From the NCBI GenBank assembly GCA_016931085.1, contig JAFGFO010000077.1:1-22975 (forward strand): a stretch of DNA of 22,975 bases, given 5' to 3'. Below are positions 194 through 22,907 of the stretch, piece after piece. A model generated the notes under the pieces. It worked only from the letters and a program-made list of their open reading frames with translations. It searched no databases and was not told where the DNA came from. This stretch comes from Thermoflexales bacterium (lineage in GTDB: Bacteria; Chloroflexota; Anaerolineae; Fen-1058). A program made the position numbers and the translations under genes. How positions within the stretch are numbered: the stretch's first letter is position 1; each line of letters opens with the position of its first letter.

Positions 194-216
194 CGTGTTG
201 CGTTAGGTGCAACACG
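194..216. promoter_or_regulatory. 8-bp palindrome, candidate operator
   Basis: CGTGTTGC (194-201) and GCAACACG (209-216) are perfect inverted arms separated by 7 bp. It lies 44 bp upstream of the small winged-helix gene and just before a second palindrome. Paired palindromes ahead of a small DNA-binding protein are typical of autoregulatory operators. The link is inferred from position only. Confidence 0.5.
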
Positions 217-223
217 CCTGCGG

Positions 224-247
224 TACAGTAGAGCTAAATCTACTGTA
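224..247. promoter_or_regulatory. 9-bp palindrome abutting the ribosome binding site
   Basis: TACAGTAGA (224-232) and TCTACTGTA (239-247) are perfect inverted arms with a 6-nt spacer. The Shine-Dalgarno GGAGGTG follows at 249-255 and the ATG at 260. It could be an operator for the adjacent winged-helix protein, or an RNA hairpin beside the ribosome binding site. No convincing -35/-10 pair could be fixed here. Confidence 0.55.
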
Positions 248-259
248 TGGAGGTGTGAT

Positions 260-463
260 ATGGCACGCAAACACGAGACAGAGCGTTTGGAAGCAATCTA
301 TGAAAGCGTGGAAGAGAACCCCGGCGAGCGATCGGGCTTTATCGCCCGCTTACTGGGCTTGTCGCGCTCTGCCGTTACCCGTTCATTGCCGGCTATGGAC
401 GAGCGTGGCTACCTGCTCAGCGAAGATGACGATGGCCGGCTGTGGCCGTTTCGGCGGGGATGA
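260..463 (+). CDS. Small winged-helix DNA-binding protein
   Basis: This 67-residue protein starts at ATG 260 behind a strong ribosome binding site (GGAGGTG, 249-255). It is almost entirely one winged helix-turn-helix. An N-terminal helix is followed by the helix-turn-helix around residues 26-47 (FIARLLGLSRSAVTRSL), and a wing hairpin with an acidic turn (SEDDDGRLWPF) ends the protein. There is no ligand or catalytic domain. It probably acts as a dimeric repressor. Two palindromes lie directly upstream, which fits autoregulation, and the next gene is another helix-turn-helix regulator leading into CRISPR remnants, so it may once have controlled the cas operon. The overlapping frame beginning at 207 is a shadow without a ribosome binding site. 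The fold is clear, but the regulatory target is inferred. Confidence 0.75.
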   Translation: MARKHETERLEAIYESVEENPGERSGFIARLLGLSRSAVTRSLPAMDERGYLLSEDDDGRLWPFRRG

Positions 464-544: not shown

Positions 545-763
545 ATGAGCCGTGTAGGCAACAAGGCTGACCGCCTATTGCAAATCGAGGCTATGCTGCT
601 GGCGTATCCCGAAGGCTTGACCCAGGCCGAGATTGCCCGCAAGCTGGATGTGCATCGCTCCATCGTCCATCGCGATCTGGGCGATCTTCCCAGGCATATC
701 TACATTGACGATTTGGATGGGGGCAAGCTCAAAGTTGACCGGGAAGCCTACCTGATCAATGTT
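545..763 (+). pseudogene. Truncated HTH/WYL-type regulator, N-terminal domain only
   Basis: The start is ATG 545 behind AGGAGGTG at 531-538. Residues 1-73 form the N-terminal winged helix-turn-helix of a WYL-type transcriptional regulator: LTQAEIARKLDVHRSIVHRD is the HTH, followed by DREAYLINV. In full-length relatives of this type the protein continues into a WYL ligand-binding region of a few hundred residues; that comparison is from memory. Here homology stops at about position 763. The same frame continues with an unrelated tail, closing at 979, because it is reading an internal casA piece out of frame. Its promoter and ribosome binding site look intact, so a roughly 144-residue HTH protein with a junk tail could still be made. 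WYL regulators commonly sit at the head of CRISPR-Cas operons, which fits the remnants downstream. Confidence 0.7.
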
Positions 764-1108
764 CTTACCTGGCAGTGGAAATGCCGGCCGGAACAGGTAT
801 CACGCACTATCGACACGGCGCGGATAGCACACAGATGTTTTGCCCGGCCTGCGCTGCTTATGGCTTGGCATGCATCCCGGCCTTTGCTACCTCGGGTGGC
901 GCGGGTATCAAGCCGTCTATCAACGGTGTGCCGCCGATTTATGTCCTGCCCGGCGGGCGCTCACTGTTTGAAAGCCTGACCGCGTCGCTGCTCATGCCTA
1001 ATTATCAGCCGCCAACCGCTTCCAAAAAGCGCGATGACGCCTGGTGGGTGCGCAAGCCGGTGGTGCAACGGGCTTACGAAGTGCACGAAGTGGGCTACTT
1101 GCACAGCC
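764..1108 (+). pseudogene. Internal fragment of casA/cse1 (type I-E Cascade large subunit)
   Basis: In the frame with a GTG at 775, about 115 codons read as the middle of Cse1/CasA. Key stretches are HYRHGADSTQ, then CPACAAYGLACIPAF, GGAGIKPSINGVPPIYVL, LFESLTASLL and finally EVGYLHS. The CxxC, the glycine-rich loop and the following PP-Y-L segment match the central region of this subunit, which recognises the PAM in the Cascade surveillance complex. Full-length CasA is about 500 residues, so both ends are missing. The left edge joins the HTH regulator near 763-772 and the right edge meets the first CRISPR repeat at 1108/1109. The frame has no stops or frameshifts and runs on through repeat 1 and spacer 1 to a stop at 1192-1194. 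It cannot be functional. The family assignment rests on motif recognition. Confidence 0.75.
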
Positions 1109-1258
1109 GTATTCCCCGCACGCGCGGGGGTGAACCGAATCCGCGCAAGCGCGTGCTGCGGCTGCCTAGGTATTCCCCGCACGCGCGGGGGTGAGCTGGT
1201 GCCCAAGTCGCTGGCGTGCCAAACGTGGTCGTATTCCCCGCACGCGCGGGGGTGAGCT
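1109..1258 (+). CRISPR. Residual type I-E CRISPR array, 3 repeats and 2 spacers
   Basis: Repeats lie at 1109-1136, 1170-1197 and 1231-1258. Each is 28 bp with a 33-bp spacer, giving an exact 61-bp period. The repeat begins GTATTCCCC and holds the palindromic stem CCCCGC-acgc-GCGGGG, typical of subtype I-E. Repeat 1 ends in GTGAACC, the canonical handle form. Repeats 2 and 3 both end in GTGAGCT. In the usual I-E orientation the leader would be to the left and the altered repeats at the old, leader-distal end. Instead of a leader, the casA fragment abuts repeat 1 directly. No cas1, cas2, cas3, cas5, cas6, cas7 or cse2 is present in the window. Transcription could only come from promoters upstream of the pseudogenes. 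Confidence 0.92.
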
Positions 1259-3278: not shown

Positions 3279-5009
3279 GTGAACAATCAGCAAGTCGCCG
3301 ACATCCTGCGCTACGTGGCCGATTGCCTGGAAATCCAGGGAGAGCTCATCTACAAGACCCTGGCTTATCGCAAGGTGGCCGATCAGATCGCCGCCTTGCC
3401 CAACGACATCGCCCAAATCTGGCAGGCCGGCCAGCTCCGCTCGATCCCCGGCGTGGGACAAGCCATCGCCGAAAAGCTGGATAGCCTGCTGTCTACGGGC
3501 ACCTTTGACCTGTACGAGCGTGTCCAAACCGAGGTGCCGGCCGGCGTGGTCGAGATGCTGCGCGTGCCCGACGTCGGCCCCAAGAAGGCCCGCTTGTTTT
3601 GGCAAGAGCTGGGCACGAGCTCGGTAGCTGAGCTGCGCCAGGCGGCCCTGGATGGCCGGCTGCGCAGCCTGCCGGGGATGGGTGAAAAATCAGAGGCCAA
3701 GATACTGGCCGGCGTTGAAGCCTATCTGCGCCGGGCTGCCAACCCCCGCCTGCCTCTCGGCAAGGCGTATGGCCTGGCGTGCGCCATCCTGGACGAGCTG
3801 CACGGCGTCCCCGGCGTCCAACGCGCCGCCGTCGCAGGCTCCCTGCGCCGTTGGCGCGAAACCGTGGGCGACCTGGATTTCCTGGTGGCTGCCGATTCGT
3901 CTGGCACGACGGCTGAGGCTGTCATGGAGCGTTTTGCCAATCTGCCGCCCGTGGCCGAGGTCCTGCTGCGAGGCGCGACCAAGACCAGCGTGCGCCTGGA
4001 TAACGGGGCACAGGCCGATCTGCGCGTGGTGGAGGCCGCCCGCTGGGGCACGGCATTGCAGTACTTTAGCGGCAGCCAGGCCCACAACGTGCGCCTGCGC
4101 GAGATCGCTCAAAAGAAGGGCTATTCGCTGTCGGAATACGCCCTCACACACGTGGCAAGTGGGAAGGAGATCACGTGCGCTGAAGAGGCCGAGGTCTATA
4201 ACCACCTGGGCTTGCCGTATATCCCGCCCGAGCTGCGCGAGGACCGCGGCGAGTTCGAGGCCGAGCTGCCACGGCTCGTCGAGATGGCCGATATCCAGGG
4301 CGATCTGCACATGCACTCGACCTGGAGCGATGGCAAGGGCTCGATAGCGGACATGGCGGCCGCCGCCCGCCGGCGTGGCTTGAGCTATGTCGCCATCACC
4401 GATCACAGCCAGAGCATGGCTATAGCGGATGGGCTGTCGGTCGAGCGGCTGCGCCGGCAGCGGGCCGAAGTCGACGCCGCCAACCGCGCGATGGGCAAGG
4501 AGTTCCGCGTGCTGCACGGCATCGAGGTGGAAATCCGGGCCGGCGGCGAGTTGGATTTCGCCGACGAGGTGCTGGCCGAGCTGGATATCGTGGTGGCCTC
4601 GCTTCACACCGGGCTGCACCAGGGCCGCGAAAAGACCACGCGCCGCTTCCTGGCCGCGATCCGCAACCCACACGTGGATATCATCGCTCACCCCTCGGGC
4701 CGGCTGATCGGTGAGCGCGAAGGCGCCGACCTGGATTACGAGGCGATTCTGCATGCGGCGGCCGAGACGCACACGATCATGGAGATCAACGCCAACCCCG
4801 CCCGGCTCGACCTGGACGACATTCACGCTCGCCGCGCGCTAGAGCTGGGCTGTGTGCTGGCCATAAGCACCGATGCGCACACCCCGGATACCCTTGACCT
4901 GATGCCCTTTGGCTTGGCGACCGCTCGCCGGGCGTGGGCCACGGCCGAGAGCGTGGCCAATACGTGGCCGGTGGACAGGCTGCTGGCGTGGATCAAGGCC
5001 AGAACCTGA
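3279..5009 (+). CDS. polX: Family X DNA polymerase / 3'-5' exonuclease with PHP domain
   Basis: From GTG 3279 this is 576 residues, the normal size for bacterial PolX. An N-terminal lyase-like domain carries helix-hairpin-helix turns SIPGVG (55-60), VPDVG (96-100) and SLPGMG (130-135). The polymerase palm has GSLRR (187-191) and the metal aspartates D198, D200 and D247, then YFSGSQAHN (262-270). The C-terminal PHP exonuclease has DLHMH (342-346), TDH (374-376), E416, H443, H471 and DAH (532-534), all intact. The enzyme fills short gaps in base-excision repair. An upstream in-frame ATG at 3165 is rejected because it would overlap the divergent ATL gene and lie upstream of the promoter. The stop codon lies inside a degenerate heptamer array. 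Confidence 0.93.
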   Translation: MNNQQVADILRYVADCLEIQGELIYKTLAYRKVADQIAALPNDIAQIWQAGQLRSIPGVGQAIAEKLDSLLSTGTFDLYERVQTEVPAGVVEMLRVPDVGPKKARLFWQELGTSSVAELRQAALDGRLRSLPGMGEKSEAKILAGVEAYLRRAANPRLPLGKAYGLACAILDELHGVPGVQRAAVAGSLRRWRETVGDLDFLVAADSSGTTAEAVMERFANLPPVAEVLLRGATKTSVRLDNGAQADLRVVEAARWGTALQYFSGSQAHNVRLREIAQKKGYSLSEYALTHVASGKEITCAEEAEVYNHLGLPYIPPELREDRGEFEAELPRLVEMADIQGDLHMHSTWSDGKGSIADMAAAARRRGLSYVAITDHSQSMAIADGLSVERLRRQRAEVDAANRAMGKEFRVLHGIEVEIRAGGELDFADEVLAELDIVVASLHTGLHQGREKTTRRFLAAIRNPHVDIIAHPSGRLIGEREGADLDYEAILHAAAETHTIMEINANPARLDLDDIHARRALELGCVLAISTDAHTPDTLDLMPFGLATARRAWATAESVANTWPVDRLLAWIKART

Positions 5010-18392: not shown

Positions 18393-19112
18393 GTGAGAGA
18401 TCAAGAACACGTTGATCCAGTCGTGATCAAGGGAACGCGAGAAGGGTTGGTCATCACGCTAGGAGGAGAGCGGTGGTCCAACCAACTCTCTCTGCTTGAG
18501 GACAAGCTGCAAGCGATGTCGGCTTTCTTCAAGGGGGCGCGAGTCGCATTGATCGTAGGTCCCCAACGCCTTTCGGAAGACGACATTCGCGCTGCGCGTG
18601 ATTTACTGCTCAAGTACGATGTGGCGTTGTGGGCCTTGGTCAGCAATGAAATACATACTCGCCAGGCTGCGGCCGCCTTGGGGCTAGACACGTCCTTGGC
18701 TCCCCGCCAGCCCTCTCCAGGTTCAGCCCCCCCCATCGCGTCGCCGGCGGTCGAGGCTACGCCAGATGCTGGCTTGGTCATCCGGCGCACGCTTCGCTCA
18801 GGCCAAAGCGTACGCCATACCGGCGCGATTATCGTCATCGGCGACGTGCATTCGGGAGCCGAGTTGATCGCCGGCGGCGACGTCGTCGTGTGGGGTAAAC
18901 TGCACGGCACGGTGCACGCCGGCGCCTTTGGCGACGAGGAGGCTGTGGTGTGTGCACTTGACTTGATGCCCATGCAGTTGCGTATCGGCCGGCAGATTAG
19001 CCGCAGCCCTGATGATCGCCGGCGCAAGGTTGTGCCAGAAATGGCGTGTGTAACGAATGGCCGCATCGAGGCTGTTGCCTGGAACCCCAAGGGGCGGGCA
19101 GGCTTGTGGTAG
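18393..19112 (+). CDS. minC: Septum site-determining protein MinC
   Basis: This 239-residue protein starts at GTG 18393 with GGAAGG about 9 bp upstream. Residues 10-100 form the N-terminal FtsZ-inhibiting domain (VIKGTREGLVITLG, ARVALIVGPQRLSEDDI). A proline-rich linker spans about 103-125. The C-terminal beta-helix dimerisation domain begins with RTLRSGQSVRHTGAIIVIG (132-150) and continues with the regular G-turn repeats GAELIAGGDVVVWGKLHGTVHAG and LMPMQLRIGRQI, the MinD-binding and dimer face. MinC blocks FtsZ ring assembly away from midcell and is brought to the membrane by MinD. minD starts 17 bp after the stop, so they form one operon. An antisense frame across this gene is not credible. 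Confidence 0.95.
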   Translation: MRDQEHVDPVVIKGTREGLVITLGGERWSNQLSLLEDKLQAMSAFFKGARVALIVGPQRLSEDDIRAARDLLLKYDVALWALVSNEIHTRQAAAALGLDTSLAPRQPSPGSAPPIASPAVEATPDAGLVIRRTLRSGQSVRHTGAIIVIGDVHSGAELIAGGDVVVWGKLHGTVHAGAFGDEEAVVCALDLMPMQLRIGRQISRSPDDRRRKVVPEMACVTNGRIEAVAWNPKGRAGLW

Positions 19113-19129
19113 AAGGAGAAGGGTGTGGA

Positions 19130-19939
19130 ATGACTGCAAGAATCGTCACGATTACGTCGGGCAAGGGTGGCGTAGGTAAAACGACCATCACGGCTAATAT
19201 CGGCGTGGCGCTGGCACAGTTGGGACAGCGTGTGCTTTGCATGGATGCCGACATTGGTTTGCGCAATCTCGATATGGCCATGGGCCTGGAGAATCGTATC
19301 GTTTACGACGTTGTCGACGTTGTGGAGAGCCGCTGCAAGTTGCGCCAGGCCATGGTCAAGGATAAACGCTTGCCTGAGCTGTATCTTTTGCCGGCTGCCC
19401 AGACACGGGACAAGACGGCTGTGAAGCCAGACGACCTGGTTCGCGTGTGCGAGGAAGCGGGGGAACTGATGGATTTCATTTTGATTGACTCGTCGGCCGG
19501 CATCGAGGATGGCTTCCGTACTGCCATGGCGCCAGCCAACGAGGTGATCATCGTGACCAATCCAGAAGTGAGCGCCGTGCGTGACGCCGATCGGGTCATT
19601 GGCCTGGTGGAAGCGGCTGAGAAAGGCCCGGCACGCCTGATTCTCAATCGCCTCAAGCCCGAGATGATCAATCGCGGGGATATGCTCGATACAGCCGATG
19701 TGCTGGATATCCTGGCGATCGAGCTGATCGGGCTTGTGCCGGAGGATGAGACCGTCCTGGTGTCGACTAACCGCGGCAACCCGGTTGTGCTCGGCGATCA
19801 CTCGCTGGCTGGCCAGGCGCTCCGCAACATTGCGCGGCGGCTGATGGGCGAAGAAGTGCCCTTCCTAACCCTGCGCGAGAGTGGCAATTTCTTTCAACGT
19901 TTTGTCCGCCTCATTCGACCTGATAGGAGTCACTCATGA
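19130..19939 (+). CDS. minD: Septum site-determining ATPase MinD
   Basis: From ATG 19130 this is 269 residues, with AAGGAG at 19113-19118. A longer frame from 19046 is rejected because it overlaps minC and lacks the usual N-terminus. The deviant Walker A GKGGVGKTT (11-19) follows the first strand directly, and MDADIGLRNLD (38-48), LIDSSAG (118-124) and VTNPEVSAVRDADR (142-155) are standard MinD motifs. The C-terminal segment SGNFFQRFVRLIRP (251-264) is an amphipathic membrane-targeting helix. ATP-bound MinD dimers recruit MinC to the membrane and are released by MinE. The last four bases overlap minE (ATGA), which suggests coupled translation. Confidence 0.97.
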   Translation: MTARIVTITSGKGGVGKTTITANIGVALAQLGQRVLCMDADIGLRNLDMAMGLENRIVYDVVDVVESRCKLRQAMVKDKRLPELYLLPAAQTRDKTAVKPDDLVRVCEEAGELMDFILIDSSAGIEDGFRTAMAPANEVIIVTNPEVSAVRDADRVIGLVEAAEKGPARLILNRLKPEMINRGDMLDTADVLDILAIELIGLVPEDETVLVSTNRGNPVVLGDHSLAGQALRNIARRLMGEEVPFLTLRESGNFFQRFVRLIRPDRSHS

Positions 19940-20220
19940 ACCGTTTTTTTGATTTCTTGCGTGGAGGGGGAGGGCCGGCTTCAAGCCGTGATTTAGCCAA
20001 GCAGCGCTTGCAGTTCGTGCTGGTGCACGACCGGGCCAATATCGCTCCCGGCTTGCTGGAGGTGATCAAGGATGAGATCATCGCGGTCATCTCACGCCAC
20101 CTGACTATCGATGAGGCTGGCGTGGAGGTTACCTTTACACAGGGCCGGCGTGAAAGCCGCCTGGTGGCTGACATTCCCTTGCTAGAAGGCCGCCGCCGCC
20201 GTCCGGCCGGAGGAGGGTAG
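19936..20220 (+). CDS. minE: Cell division topological specificity factor MinE
   Basis: This 94-residue protein has all MinE parts: an N-terminal amphipathic membrane-binding segment MNRFFDFLRG, the anti-MinCD segment AKQRLQFVLVHDRANIAPGLL (21-41) that contacts MinD, and the dimerisation beta-sheet region IDEAGVEVTFTQGRRESRLVADIPL (58-82). It stimulates the MinD ATPase and so drives pole-to-pole oscillation, implying that this bacterium uses an oscillating Min system rather than a DivIVA-anchored one. The ATG overlaps the minD stop by 4 bp. The C-terminus RRRRPAGGG is basic and beyond the conserved fold. rodA begins 4 bp after the stop. Confidence 0.93.
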   Translation: MNRFFDFLRGGGGPASSRDLAKQRLQFVLVHDRANIAPGLLEVIKDEIIAVISRHLTIDEAGVEVTFTQGRRESRLVADIPLLEGRRRRPAGGG

Positions 20221-20224
20221 GGCG

Positions 20225-21325
20225 GTGTTTGACGCTCGCTTGTGGCGTCACTTTGACGCCTGGCTGCTGCTGTCTGTCCTGCTGCTGTGCGTTTTTGGCG
20301 TGGCGATGGTCTACAGCGCCACCTTGAGCACGCCGGACTTGGCCGACTATCCGGCCCGGCAGGCAGTCTTTGCTCTGGTTGGCCTGGTCGCTTTTTTCTT
20401 CATGACCGCCTGGAATTATCGCGAGCTGGGGAAAGCTTATCGCGTGCTGTATGCCGTTATCATCGCCCTGTTGTTGATTGCATTGCTGATGGGCGGCAGC
20501 CAGATTGGCTCGGTACAGCGTTGGGTGAGTTTTCCACTCTTTGACGTTCAACCGGCTGAACCGGCCAAGGTACTGCTCATCATTGTCCTGGCCAGTTTCC
20601 TGGCCAATCACGAGGAAGAGGTGATGAGCTGGCGGGTGCTGTTGGGTTCATTGGTGCTGGTAGCCATCCCGATTGGCCTGGTCGCAGCCCAACCGAACTT
20701 GAGCACGGTTATCGTCCTGTTGGTGATTTGGGCTGCCATGGTGTTCGCCGCTGGCTTGCGTTGGTATCACGTGCTGGCCTTTGGCGGCCTGGGTGTGCTG
20801 GCTACGCCCCTCGCCTGGTTGGCTATGAAAGACTATATGCGTGGGCGCATCCTGATGTTTTTGTTAGACATTGAGCCTGTGCCGGGGGCGCGCTACAATC
20901 TCGACCAGGCCCTCATTAGCATCGGCAACGGCGGCCTGTTGGGCAAGGGCTTTGCCGGCGGCAGCCAGAGCCAATTGCACTTTTTGCGCGTGCGGCACAC
21001 GGATTTCATTTTTTCGGTGATCGCCGAAGAGATGGGCCTGTTGGGCGCGCTATGCTTGTTCGCCCTCTTTATGTTCCTGTTGTTTCGCTTGCTGCGGATC
21101 GCCTACATGGCGCGCGACTCGATGGGACGTTATTACGTGATCGGCGTGGTGGCCATGATCTTTTTCACCGCCGTGGTCAATATCGCCATGAATTTGAGCC
21201 TCATGCCGGTGGCAGGGCTGCCGCTGCCGTTTGTCAGCTATGGCGGCAGCTCGCTGCTGACTTTGTTGTTTGCCCTGGGCGTTGCCCAGAGCGTGCTGAT
21301 GCGGCACAAAACCTTAGAATTCTAA
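20225..21325 (+). CDS. rodA: SEDS peptidoglycan glycosyltransferase RodA
   Basis: From GTG 20225 this is 366 residues, with GGAGGAGGG about 8 bp upstream inside the end of minE. Some ten membrane helices are visible. SEDS motifs are present: QRW near 99-100, FDVQPAEPAK (106-115), RYNLDQALISIGNGGLLGKG (223-242), RHTDFIFSVIAEEMGLLG (257-274, with the conserved acidic D260) and LPLPFVSYGGSSLL (332-345). RodA polymerises lipid II glycan strands for sidewall synthesis with a class B penicillin-binding protein partner. RodA is preferred over FtsW because of the minE-rodA order, known from several bacterial phyla, though motifs alone do not separate the two cleanly. No partner PBP or mreBCD genes lie in the window. 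Confidence 0.88.
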   Translation: MFDARLWRHFDAWLLLSVLLLCVFGVAMVYSATLSTPDLADYPARQAVFALVGLVAFFFMTAWNYRELGKAYRVLYAVIIALLLIALLMGGSQIGSVQRWVSFPLFDVQPAEPAKVLLIIVLASFLANHEEEVMSWRVLLGSLVLVAIPIGLVAAQPNLSTVIVLLVIWAAMVFAAGLRWYHVLAFGGLGVLATPLAWLAMKDYMRGRILMFLLDIEPVPGARYNLDQALISIGNGGLLGKGFAGGSQSQLHFLRVRHTDFIFSVIAEEMGLLGALCLFALFMFLLFRLLRIAYMARDSMGRYYVIGVVAMIFFTAVVNIAMNLSLMPVAGLPLPFVSYGGSSLLTLLFALGVAQSVLMRHKTLEF

Positions 21326-21328
21326 GCC

Positions 21329-21361
21329 AGGTGACCGGCACCTCCGAGGTGCCAGTCACCT
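21329..21361. terminator. Long hairpin between rodA and gltX
   Basis: Outer arms AGGTGAC (21329-21335) and GTCACCT (21355-21361), one C/A mismatch, inner arms GGCACCT (21337-21343) and AGGTGCC (21347-21353), loop CCG. It starts 3 bp after the rodA stop and is followed by CTTT, so it may act as a terminator. It also fits the 3-nt-loop hairpin family of this window. Confidence 0.65.
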
Positions 21362-21377
21362 CTTTGGAATAAATGAC

Positions 21378-22907
21378 ATGACTGTTCGCGTTCGCTATGC
21401 ACCCAGCCCGACCGGCGAACCTCACATCGGCAATATTCGCACGGTTGTTTTCAACTCCTTGTTCGCGCGCCACACGGGCGGAAAGCTCGTGTTGCGCATC
21501 GAGGACACCGACCAACAGCGTTATACCCCCGGCTCGGCGCGCGTCACGATCGAGGCCTTGAATTGGCTGGGGATCGAGTTTGACGAAGGCCCCAGCCGCG
21601 ACGAGTTGCGCGCCATCGGTGAAGATTGGGACGGTGCGCCGGAAATCGGCGGCCCTCACGGCCCCTATATCCAATCGCTGCGCAGCCAGTTGTACCAGCA
21701 GTACGCCCAAGAGCTGCTCGCGCGCGGCTGGGCCTATCGCTGCGATTGCTCGCCGGAGCGCTTGGCTGCCGTGCGCCAGCAGCAGACCGCCAACAAGCAG
21801 TCGCCCGGCTATGATCGCTTGTGCCGTGCCAAAAAGCCTGGCGAGGTCTCGCCTGATGAACCCCACGTCGTCCGCCTGGCCGTTCCACTCGAGGGCTGCA
21901 CGTCGTTTCACGACCAGATCAAGGGCAAGCTGACAGTTGAAAATGCCCAACTCGATGACCAGGTGCTGGTCAAGAGCGACGGCTTGCCAACTTACCACCT
22001 GGCCGTCGTCGTGGATGACCACACGATGGGGATAACGCACGTCATCCGCGCCGACGAATGGCTGCCCAGCACGCCCAAGCACGTCTTGTTGTACCAGGCC
22101 TTGGGTTGGGACTTGCCGGTCTTTGCTCACGTGCCGATGGTGCTGGGCGAGGATGGACGCAAGCTGTCCAAGCGGCACGGCGCAACTTCGATCAGCGAGT
22201 TTCGCAAGCAGGGCTTTTTGCCCGAAGCGCTGTTCAATTTCCTGGTCTTCTTGGGCTGGTCGCCGGGTGAAGGGGAAGAGCGCGAGTTTTTTAGCCGCCA
22301 AGAGTTGGTGGAGCGTTTTAGCCTGGATCACGTCAACCGGGCCGGGGCGGTTTTCTCGTATCCCAAGCTGGATTGGATCAATGGTGAATACATTCGCGCT
22401 TTAGCGCACGACGAGCTGGCCCGCCGGCTGCTGCCCTACCTGGCCGCCGGCCTGGGGCTGCCCGAGGAAGAGATCGGCCTTGATAAAGTGCGGCAGCTCG
22501 TCCCGCTCGTCCGCGAGCGCCTGAAGCGCCTGACCGATGTGGTCGAATGGTGCGACGTGTTTTTCGTCGACTTTCCGCCGCCGGAGGCCGATCGCCTCAT
22601 CGGCAAAAAGATGGAGGCTGCCACGAGTTTGGCTGCGCTTCGGCGCGCCATCGCTGTGCTGGAGGGCCTGCCCGATTCGGAGTGGGGCGAGGCGACCCTG
22701 GAAGAGCTGCTGCGCAAGCTGGTTGACGAGCTGGGCCTGAAGACTGGCCAATTGTTCGGCATCGTGCGCGTGGCGGTGACCGGCAAGGATGTGGCGCCGC
22801 CTCTCTTTGGCACCTTGGCCGTGTTAGGCCAGGCCAAGTCGCTGGAGCGCCTGCGAGCGGCCGAGGCTCAACTGGCATCAAAACCCTTAGGGTCCGTAAA
22901 TAAATAA
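21378..22907 (+). CDS. gltX: Glutamyl-tRNA synthetase
   Basis: This 509-residue class I synthetase attaches glutamate to tRNA-Glu. The HIGH signature appears as HIGN (16-19) in YAPSPTGEPHIGNIRT, and KLSKR (262-266) is intact. LRIEDTDQQR (39-48) and GLPTYHLAVVVDDH (202-215) are standard active-site elements. A CDC pair (122-124) with C149 recalls the zinc-binding site of bacterial GluRS. The C-terminal anticodon-binding helical cage is present with normal length. A short extension between residues 76 and 92 (ELRAIGEDWDGAPEIGG) lengthens the loop before GPYIQS. The ATG at 21378 has only a weak upstream GGAA. A hairpin separates it from rodA, so it may have its own transcript. Confidence 0.95.
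   Translation: MTVRVRYAPSPTGEPHIGNIRTVVFNSLFARHTGGKLVLRIEDTDQQRYTPGSARVTIEALNWLGIEFDEGPSRDELRAIGEDWDGAPEIGGPHGPYIQSLRSQLYQQYAQELLARGWAYRCDCSPERLAAVRQQQTANKQSPGYDRLCRAKKPGEVSPDEPHVVRLAVPLEGCTSFHDQIKGKLTVENAQLDDQVLVKSDGLPTYHLAVVVDDHTMGITHVIRADEWLPSTPKHVLLYQALGWDLPVFAHVPMVLGEDGRKLSKRHGATSISEFRKQGFLPEALFNFLVFLGWSPGEGEEREFFSRQELVERFSLDHVNRAGAVFSYPKLDWINGEYIRALAHDELARRLLPYLAAGLGLPEEEIGLDKVRQLVPLVRERLKRLTDVVEWCDVFFVDFPPPEADRLIGKKMEAATSLAALRRAIAVLEGLPDSEWGEATLEELLRKLVDELGLKTGQLFGIVRVAVTGKDVAPPLFGTLAVLGQAKSLERLRAAEAQLASKPLGSVNK

Follow-up and report, generated by a model that had tools for sequence, protein, structure and literature searches.

Probable loss of a type I-E CRISPR-Cas locus through two deletions

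The window analysed here (the whole stretch of 22,975 bases) very probably carries what two deletions have left of a type I-E CRISPR-Cas locus in an Anaerolineae-like bacterium. The surviving pieces, their order and their joints can be read directly from a single contig, and the ancestral order can be read from related loci: the start of an HTH-WYL protein runs into an internal segment of casA, which in turn runs into a CRISPR repeat. A first-pass annotation of this DNA had likewise proposed a type I-E locus with two internal deletions, and both pieces and order indeed match related Anaerolineae loci, although its inventory overlooked an intact winged-helix gene at 260–463 (ORF1) and the palindrome belonging to it. 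The remnant is laid out as follows:

196..214, no strand: candidate operator palindrome TGTTGC-N7-GCAACA, beginning 64 bases 5′ of ORF1
224..247, no strand: second inverted repeat TACAGTAGA-6-TCTACTGTA, directly 5′ of the ORF1 ribosome-binding site
260..463, + strand: ORF1, an intact gene for a winged-helix protein of 67 aa that is a candidate regulator of cas genes
499-511: palindrome TGATATAATATCA, which overlaps with a TATAAT 5′ of the HTH gene
545..763, + strand: 5′ end (73 codons) of an HTH-WYL gene, which probably encoded an HTH-WYL-WCX-Cas3 fusion
545..979, + strand: chimeric 144-aa frame made of the HTH and of casA DNA read out of frame
764..1108, + strand: internal segment of casA (Cas8e/Cse1), residues 130–244 of 527
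1109..1136, + strand: CRISPR repeat 1 (R1), directly 3′ of the casA sequence
1137..1169, + strand: spacer 1, 33 nt, without convincing target
1170..1197, + strand: CRISPR repeat 2 (R2), with a variant 3′ end
1198..1230, + strand: spacer 2, 33 nt, no target found
1231..1258, + strand: CRISPR repeat 3 (R3), the final repeat, with a variant 3′ end

What marks these pieces as a I-E remnant is the Cas8e fragment, the I-E-like repeat (28–29 nt, 61-base period, on the cas strand) and the fact that the fragments keep their ancestral order and orientation. The window locus is unable to make interference or adaptation proteins. Cas8e/Cse1 is reduced to residues 130–244 of about 527, and at most 73 N-terminal residues are left of a Cas3 that should contain HD and helicase domains. 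Moreover, tblastn searches of all 22,975 bases with the Cas3, CasA, Cse2, Cas7, Cas5, Cas6, Cas1 and Cas2 proteins of relatives revealed no other cas sequence, leaving the locus devoid of cse2, cas7, cas5, cas6e, cas1 and cas2. Rfam and tRNA scans yielded no matches, and a scan for promoters and terminators performed no better than the shuffle level.

Identity of the casA segment

The earlier assignment of 764–1108 to casA is supported by profile searches as well as by relatives. The segment matched the Cas8e model of PADLOC (E 1.4e-11), solved Cse1 chains (E 8e-9) and, just below the cut-off of 24.7 bits, the Cse1 family of Pfam (PF09481; E 2.7e-5, 24.0 bits), while a search of NCBIfam gave no match. 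Among the 396 genomes of the class to which the genome of locus L001 belongs, the segment was matched in 19, strongly in 16 (E values no higher than 2.2e-24) and weakly in three, and all 16 strong-match loci were fetched as the set of casA relatives. The best of these (L044) is 72% identical across all 115 codons, which correspond to residues 130–244 of a 527-aa CasA. In 13 of the 16 loci, 113–115 of the 115 codons were matched at 54–72% identity; the match in L057 (71% over 77 codons) is truncated by a contig end, and those in L058 and L059 are only 45–46% identical. Within the order of genome G318, casA was found in two of 28 genomes, both already among the relatives. It was found in none of the 17 genomes of polX relatives examined and gave no confirmed match in viral contigs, and no array was found at the weak casA matches L060–L062.

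The casA frame of the segment is free of stops, with 1, 4, 1, 8 and 7 stops in the remaining five frames. In comparison with 14 relatives, none of the 22 invariant columns has changed in the segment, nor has any of the 44 columns that at least 85% of them share, so that no decay is visible in this piece, in agreement with the first-pass description. The undecayed state may reflect either a recent collapse or a wrong contig.

Ancestral gene order and position of the joints

In related Anaerolineae loci the order is HTH-WYL, cas3, casA, cse2, cas7, cas5, cas6e, cas1, cas2 and array, and in 10 of the 16 casA loci cas3 to cas2 are complete or nearly so, in this order and on a single strand. The succession of regulator, cas genes and array that had been presumed ancestral is thus seen in relatives with fuller loci. 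Given this gene order, the window equals such a locus minus about 3.9–4.0 kb and 5.2–7.9 kb, a total of nine kilobases or more. Gene order, casA sequence and I-E-like repeat are shared with Anaerolineae I-E loci such as L044, L046 and L048, but little of cas3 and casA remains in the window, which has no leader and none of the other cas genes.

The first joint, previously put at about 763–772, does connect HTH and casA sequence and could be placed at 763|764: where relatives continue (for example) as YLVNV-RLSLHEA, the window reads YLINV and then CT TAC CTG as in casA. The second joint lies at 1108|1109, where relatives read GYLHS-LTFPARR and the window reads GYLHS, followed by a C and then by the repeat (GTATTCCCC). 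This C agrees with the initial base of the Leu codon, which leaves one base of doubt; the repeat itself begins at 1109, so the claim that this joint falls at a repeat boundary stands with at most one doubtful base in between. Judged from the relatives, neither joint shows more than 1–2 shared bases.

Measured against L048, L044 and L053, the first loss amounts to 3889, 3937 and 4040 bases and the second to 5612, 5244 and 7874 bases, respectively, the figures for the second loss ending at the first repeat of the relative and excluding lost spacers. In L053, cas6e and cas1 are separated by ca. 2 kb of additional DNA. From this layout we infer two separate deletions. The ancestor would have consisted of ORF1 behind its palindrome, an HTH-WYL protein probably fused to Cas3, casA through cas2, a leader and an array. 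Deletion 1 (ca. 3.9–4.0 kb) would then have joined codon 73 of HTH-WYL(-Cas3) to casA codon 130, and deletion 2 (ca. 5.2–7.9 kb by comparison with the three relatives) would have joined casA codon 244 to the start of a repeat, with loss of the leader, the adaptation genes and perhaps the greater part of the array.

Deletions that remove CRISPR-Cas are already known: in Staphylococcus epidermidis, large ones eliminate the system spontaneously (PMC3784566), and the wreck itself is therefore ordinary. In that paper the locus-wide deletions are ascribed to transposons, to homologous regions or to excision of a cassette, whereas the joints in the window, judged by relatives, share at most 1–2 bases. 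The value of the present case lies in a precise pair of joints, one of them at a repeat edge, the recurrence of which can be counted elsewhere.

Origin of the HTH piece

The piece at 545–763 had been described as the HTH half of a WYL-type regulator. It is indeed the HTH part of an HTH-WYL protein, but probably represents the start of cas3 instead of a separate regulator, because eight of the 11 close I-E relatives have HTH-WYL fused to Cas3. The piece matches HTH domains of Pfam and positions 2–70 of a Cas3 model of PADLOC (Cas3c; E 4.7e-20), and is 53% and 52% identical to the Cas3 fusions of L048 and L046, respectively. The region 5′ of casA is retained in 11 of the 16 casA loci (and cut off in the other five), and in eight of these (L044, L046, L048, L053, L056, L057, L058 and L059) HTH-WYL and Cas3 form a single alignment directly 5′ of casA. 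Frames of 1,215–1,260 aa were seen for seven of the eight, all but L057, whose alignment begins at residue 17. Pfam scans of L046, L048 and L056 revealed WYL, WCX, HD and helicase domains in all three, and an N-terminal HTH in L046 and L048. A WYL domain fused to Cas3 is mentioned by Makarova et al. 2014 (PMC4012209); compared with that fusion, only the first 73 residues survive in the window.

When the search was widened, 109 of the 396 genomes proved to contain the HTH, with many of the matches weak and many in frames of 320–420 aa. Twenty of these places were fetched as a second set, comprising 12 stand-alone HTH-WYL frames (329–389 aa), seven fusions to a Cas3-like protein and one frame (in G359) that continues past the WYL part up to a contig end and was counted as cut. 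The stand-alone frames are 53–66% identical to the piece in the window and the seven fused ones 51–61%. Since stand-alone genes match equally well, and since HTH-WYL and Cas3 align apart in L045, L047 and L055, the piece may still derive from a stand-alone HTH-WYL regulator with a separate cas3 downstream. We consider this origin possible but doubtful, as both parts fall in one alignment in the eight of 11 I-E loci mentioned above, which combine a close casA with a retained 5′ region, and as the two best HTH matches among those 11 (L048 and L046) are both fusions. 

Joint 1 has produced the chimeric 144-aa frame (545–979), for which the protein database gave no full-length match beyond the entry of the window itself; its cluster has one member from one contig, and no second assembly was found. 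The recovery of this frame from one contig only would also follow from a misassembly in which the cas 5′ end, the casA piece and the array were falsely joined, while lying apart or within an intact locus in the genome. Arrays are hard to assemble, and a wrong join would leave the casA piece just as undecayed. Such an error nevertheless seems unlikely, as it needs two false joins only 345 bases apart, each apparently with at most 1–2 shared bases, in a window that contains no N and whose pieces agree in third-position GC (0.66–0.68 in ORF1, HTH and casA pieces, versus 0.83 in the neighbouring polX).

The pieces differ in where their closest relatives lie. The HTH is up to 66% identical to the HTH-WYL of other loci and only 37% and 35% identical to the units that adjoin the nearest casA genes (L044 and L045), and ORF1 is 64% identical to its counterpart in L138 versus 46% in L046 and L048. 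As HTH and ORF1 are therefore closest to loci other than that of the nearest casA, the pieces may lack a single ancestral locus.

Another HTH-WYL remnant was encountered in G288:C42 (L144, 6297–6752), covering residues 1–152 with one stop reported; no queried cas gene was matched and no array was found within 14 kb. Further short relatives of the HTH are present in the protein database, and in some of them (P0004–P0010) the match to the family seems to break off early, the length limit of the protein search favouring such short pieces.

CRISPR repeats and the joint at the repeat edge

The array consists of three 28-nt direct repeats starting at 1109, 1170 and 1231, with a period of 61 and 33-nt spacers, and neither strand of the window contains another copy of R1 at up to 8 mismatches. 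R1 ends in GTGAACC, and R2 and R3 end in GTGAGCT. An array is present in 9 of the 16 casA loci, with its repeats oriented as in the window, and the repeats of these nine arrays end in GAACC like R1 in six cases and in GGACC in three. The ending that R1 shares with most relatives' repeats fits a position of R1 nearer to the leader, although perhaps not as the first repeat. The repeat core was not found in the 396 class genomes at up to one mismatch, and an exact search for it in viral contigs gave no match. The spacer cores (22 and 23 bases) had no exact match in viral contigs either. Against phages, spacer 1 yielded a single 19-base match (E 0.3) that we regard as chance, and spacer 2 yielded none; against the fetched loci, the spacers shared short words only, at best 15 of 33 bases in L053.

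The coincidence of joint 2 with a repeat edge had been judged hard to explain by random deletion. That wording was too strong, because, with a unit length of 61 bases, a random break in the array falls on the start of a repeat at one in 61 positions, or two in 61 with the one-base doubt, and chance end joining is the most likely explanation. Another would be that a similarity of casA to the repeat directed the second deletion, as the codons past the joint (LTFPARR) read approximately TTCCCnGCnCGC and are repeat-like. When scored against the repeat in 14 relatives (a 15th, without the motif, was left out), casA at the joint ranks in the top 22 of ca. 1,550 positions in nine, and is best or tied best in five. 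However, 58–224 positions outscore the joint site in the other five of the 14, and a join within the shared stretch would have placed the casA CTNACN before TTCCC, where the window instead carries the repeat's own GTA, which makes such guidance improbable.

Alternatively, the second deletion could be the work of the adaptation machinery, with Cas1-Cas2 taking a chromosome end broken inside casA as prespacer and attaching it to the first base of the repeat. This would be its normal first-site reaction, joining the broken casA 3′ end to the repeat 5′ end, with the intervening DNA then lost; the half-finished reaction would have been resolved as a deletion in which cas genes and leader disappeared and the small regulator and its operator were spared. 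Leader-side joining by Cas1-Cas2 has this polarity, and in the window the casA 3′ end indeed abuts the first base of a complete repeat, with at most one shared base. Although its truth would mean that CRISPR adaptation is able to erase its own locus, we rate it as very improbable, since chance alone meets a repeat start at the above frequency, R1 need not be the leader-proximal repeat, and no second case of such a repeat-edge deletion was found. In looking for repeat-edge deletions, the K-12 locus was matched in 3,518 of 5,426 E. coli genomes, a count that speaks neither for nor against recurrence, and the titles and abstract openings covered in the literature contained no account in which a piece of a cas gene abuts a repeat exactly.

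ORF1 and its palindrome

Both the ORF1 gene and its palindrome are intact in the window, and ORF1 may still be expressed. Judging from sequence and position, ORF1 is a candidate cas regulator and the palindrome at 196–214 a candidate operator, any regulator activity being presumed. In Pfam, ORF1 matched HTH families, all under their cut-offs, and the protein database holds 67 relatives besides ORF1 itself, up to 88% identical. ORF1 lies upstream of HTH-WYL(-Cas3) in 6 of 11 first-set loci and in 16 of 20 second-set loci, the latter having been selected by HTH match.

The palindrome occurs once in the window at up to one mismatch, and this occurrence is exact. Allowing one mismatch, it is found 5′ of ORF1 in 23 of 25 loci (6/6 in the first set, 14/16 in the second and 3/3 in a third), and it is present in 7 of the 11 first-set loci with a 5′ region. 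ORF1 is missing from L044, L125 and L131, which do have the palindrome, and both are missing from L045, L047, L055, L057, L130 and L133; L146, with a partial ORF1-like match and the palindrome, was left out of the counts. Control loci (L001–L023 and L060–L063; 342,508 bases) yielded a single hit at up to one mismatch. Loci were chosen via casA, HTH or ORF1 matches and never via the palindrome, but the palindrome-bearing loci are related, so that the 23 cases are not independent events. 

By eye, a second dyad (5-bp dyads of other sequence, G-T allowed) was seen 32–33 bases past the palindrome start in all six first-set loci that carry ORF1. Such a dyad is contained in 14% of random 26-nt stretches, and at 31–35 bases it was seen in only 7 of 14 second-set loci.

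WYL regulators that adjoin defence genes are known as BrxR-type. Their position beside defence genes is described in a paper that uses "inverted repeat" 23 times (PMC9122601); ORF1 differs from these regulators as a winged helix of only 67 aa that lacks a WYL domain, and its palindrome is a candidate operator only. The conserved unit of ORF1 and palindrome precedes I-E loci in Anaerolineae genomes, and other loci there with a cas3-like helicase, to which no subtype is assigned here, and offers a testable candidate for the control of these loci.

Host and remainder of the window

The polX gene (3282–5006) is at best 58% identical to its counterparts in 23 loci, the nearest of which are labelled Anaerolineales or Chloroflexota. 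The order PHP, ogt, polX recurs in two of these 23 loci, several of which are too short to judge. Further downstream, the frames at 18393–22907 are, from their translations as read by eye, presumably MinC-, MinD- and MinE-like, followed by RodA/FtsW-like and GltX-like proteins.
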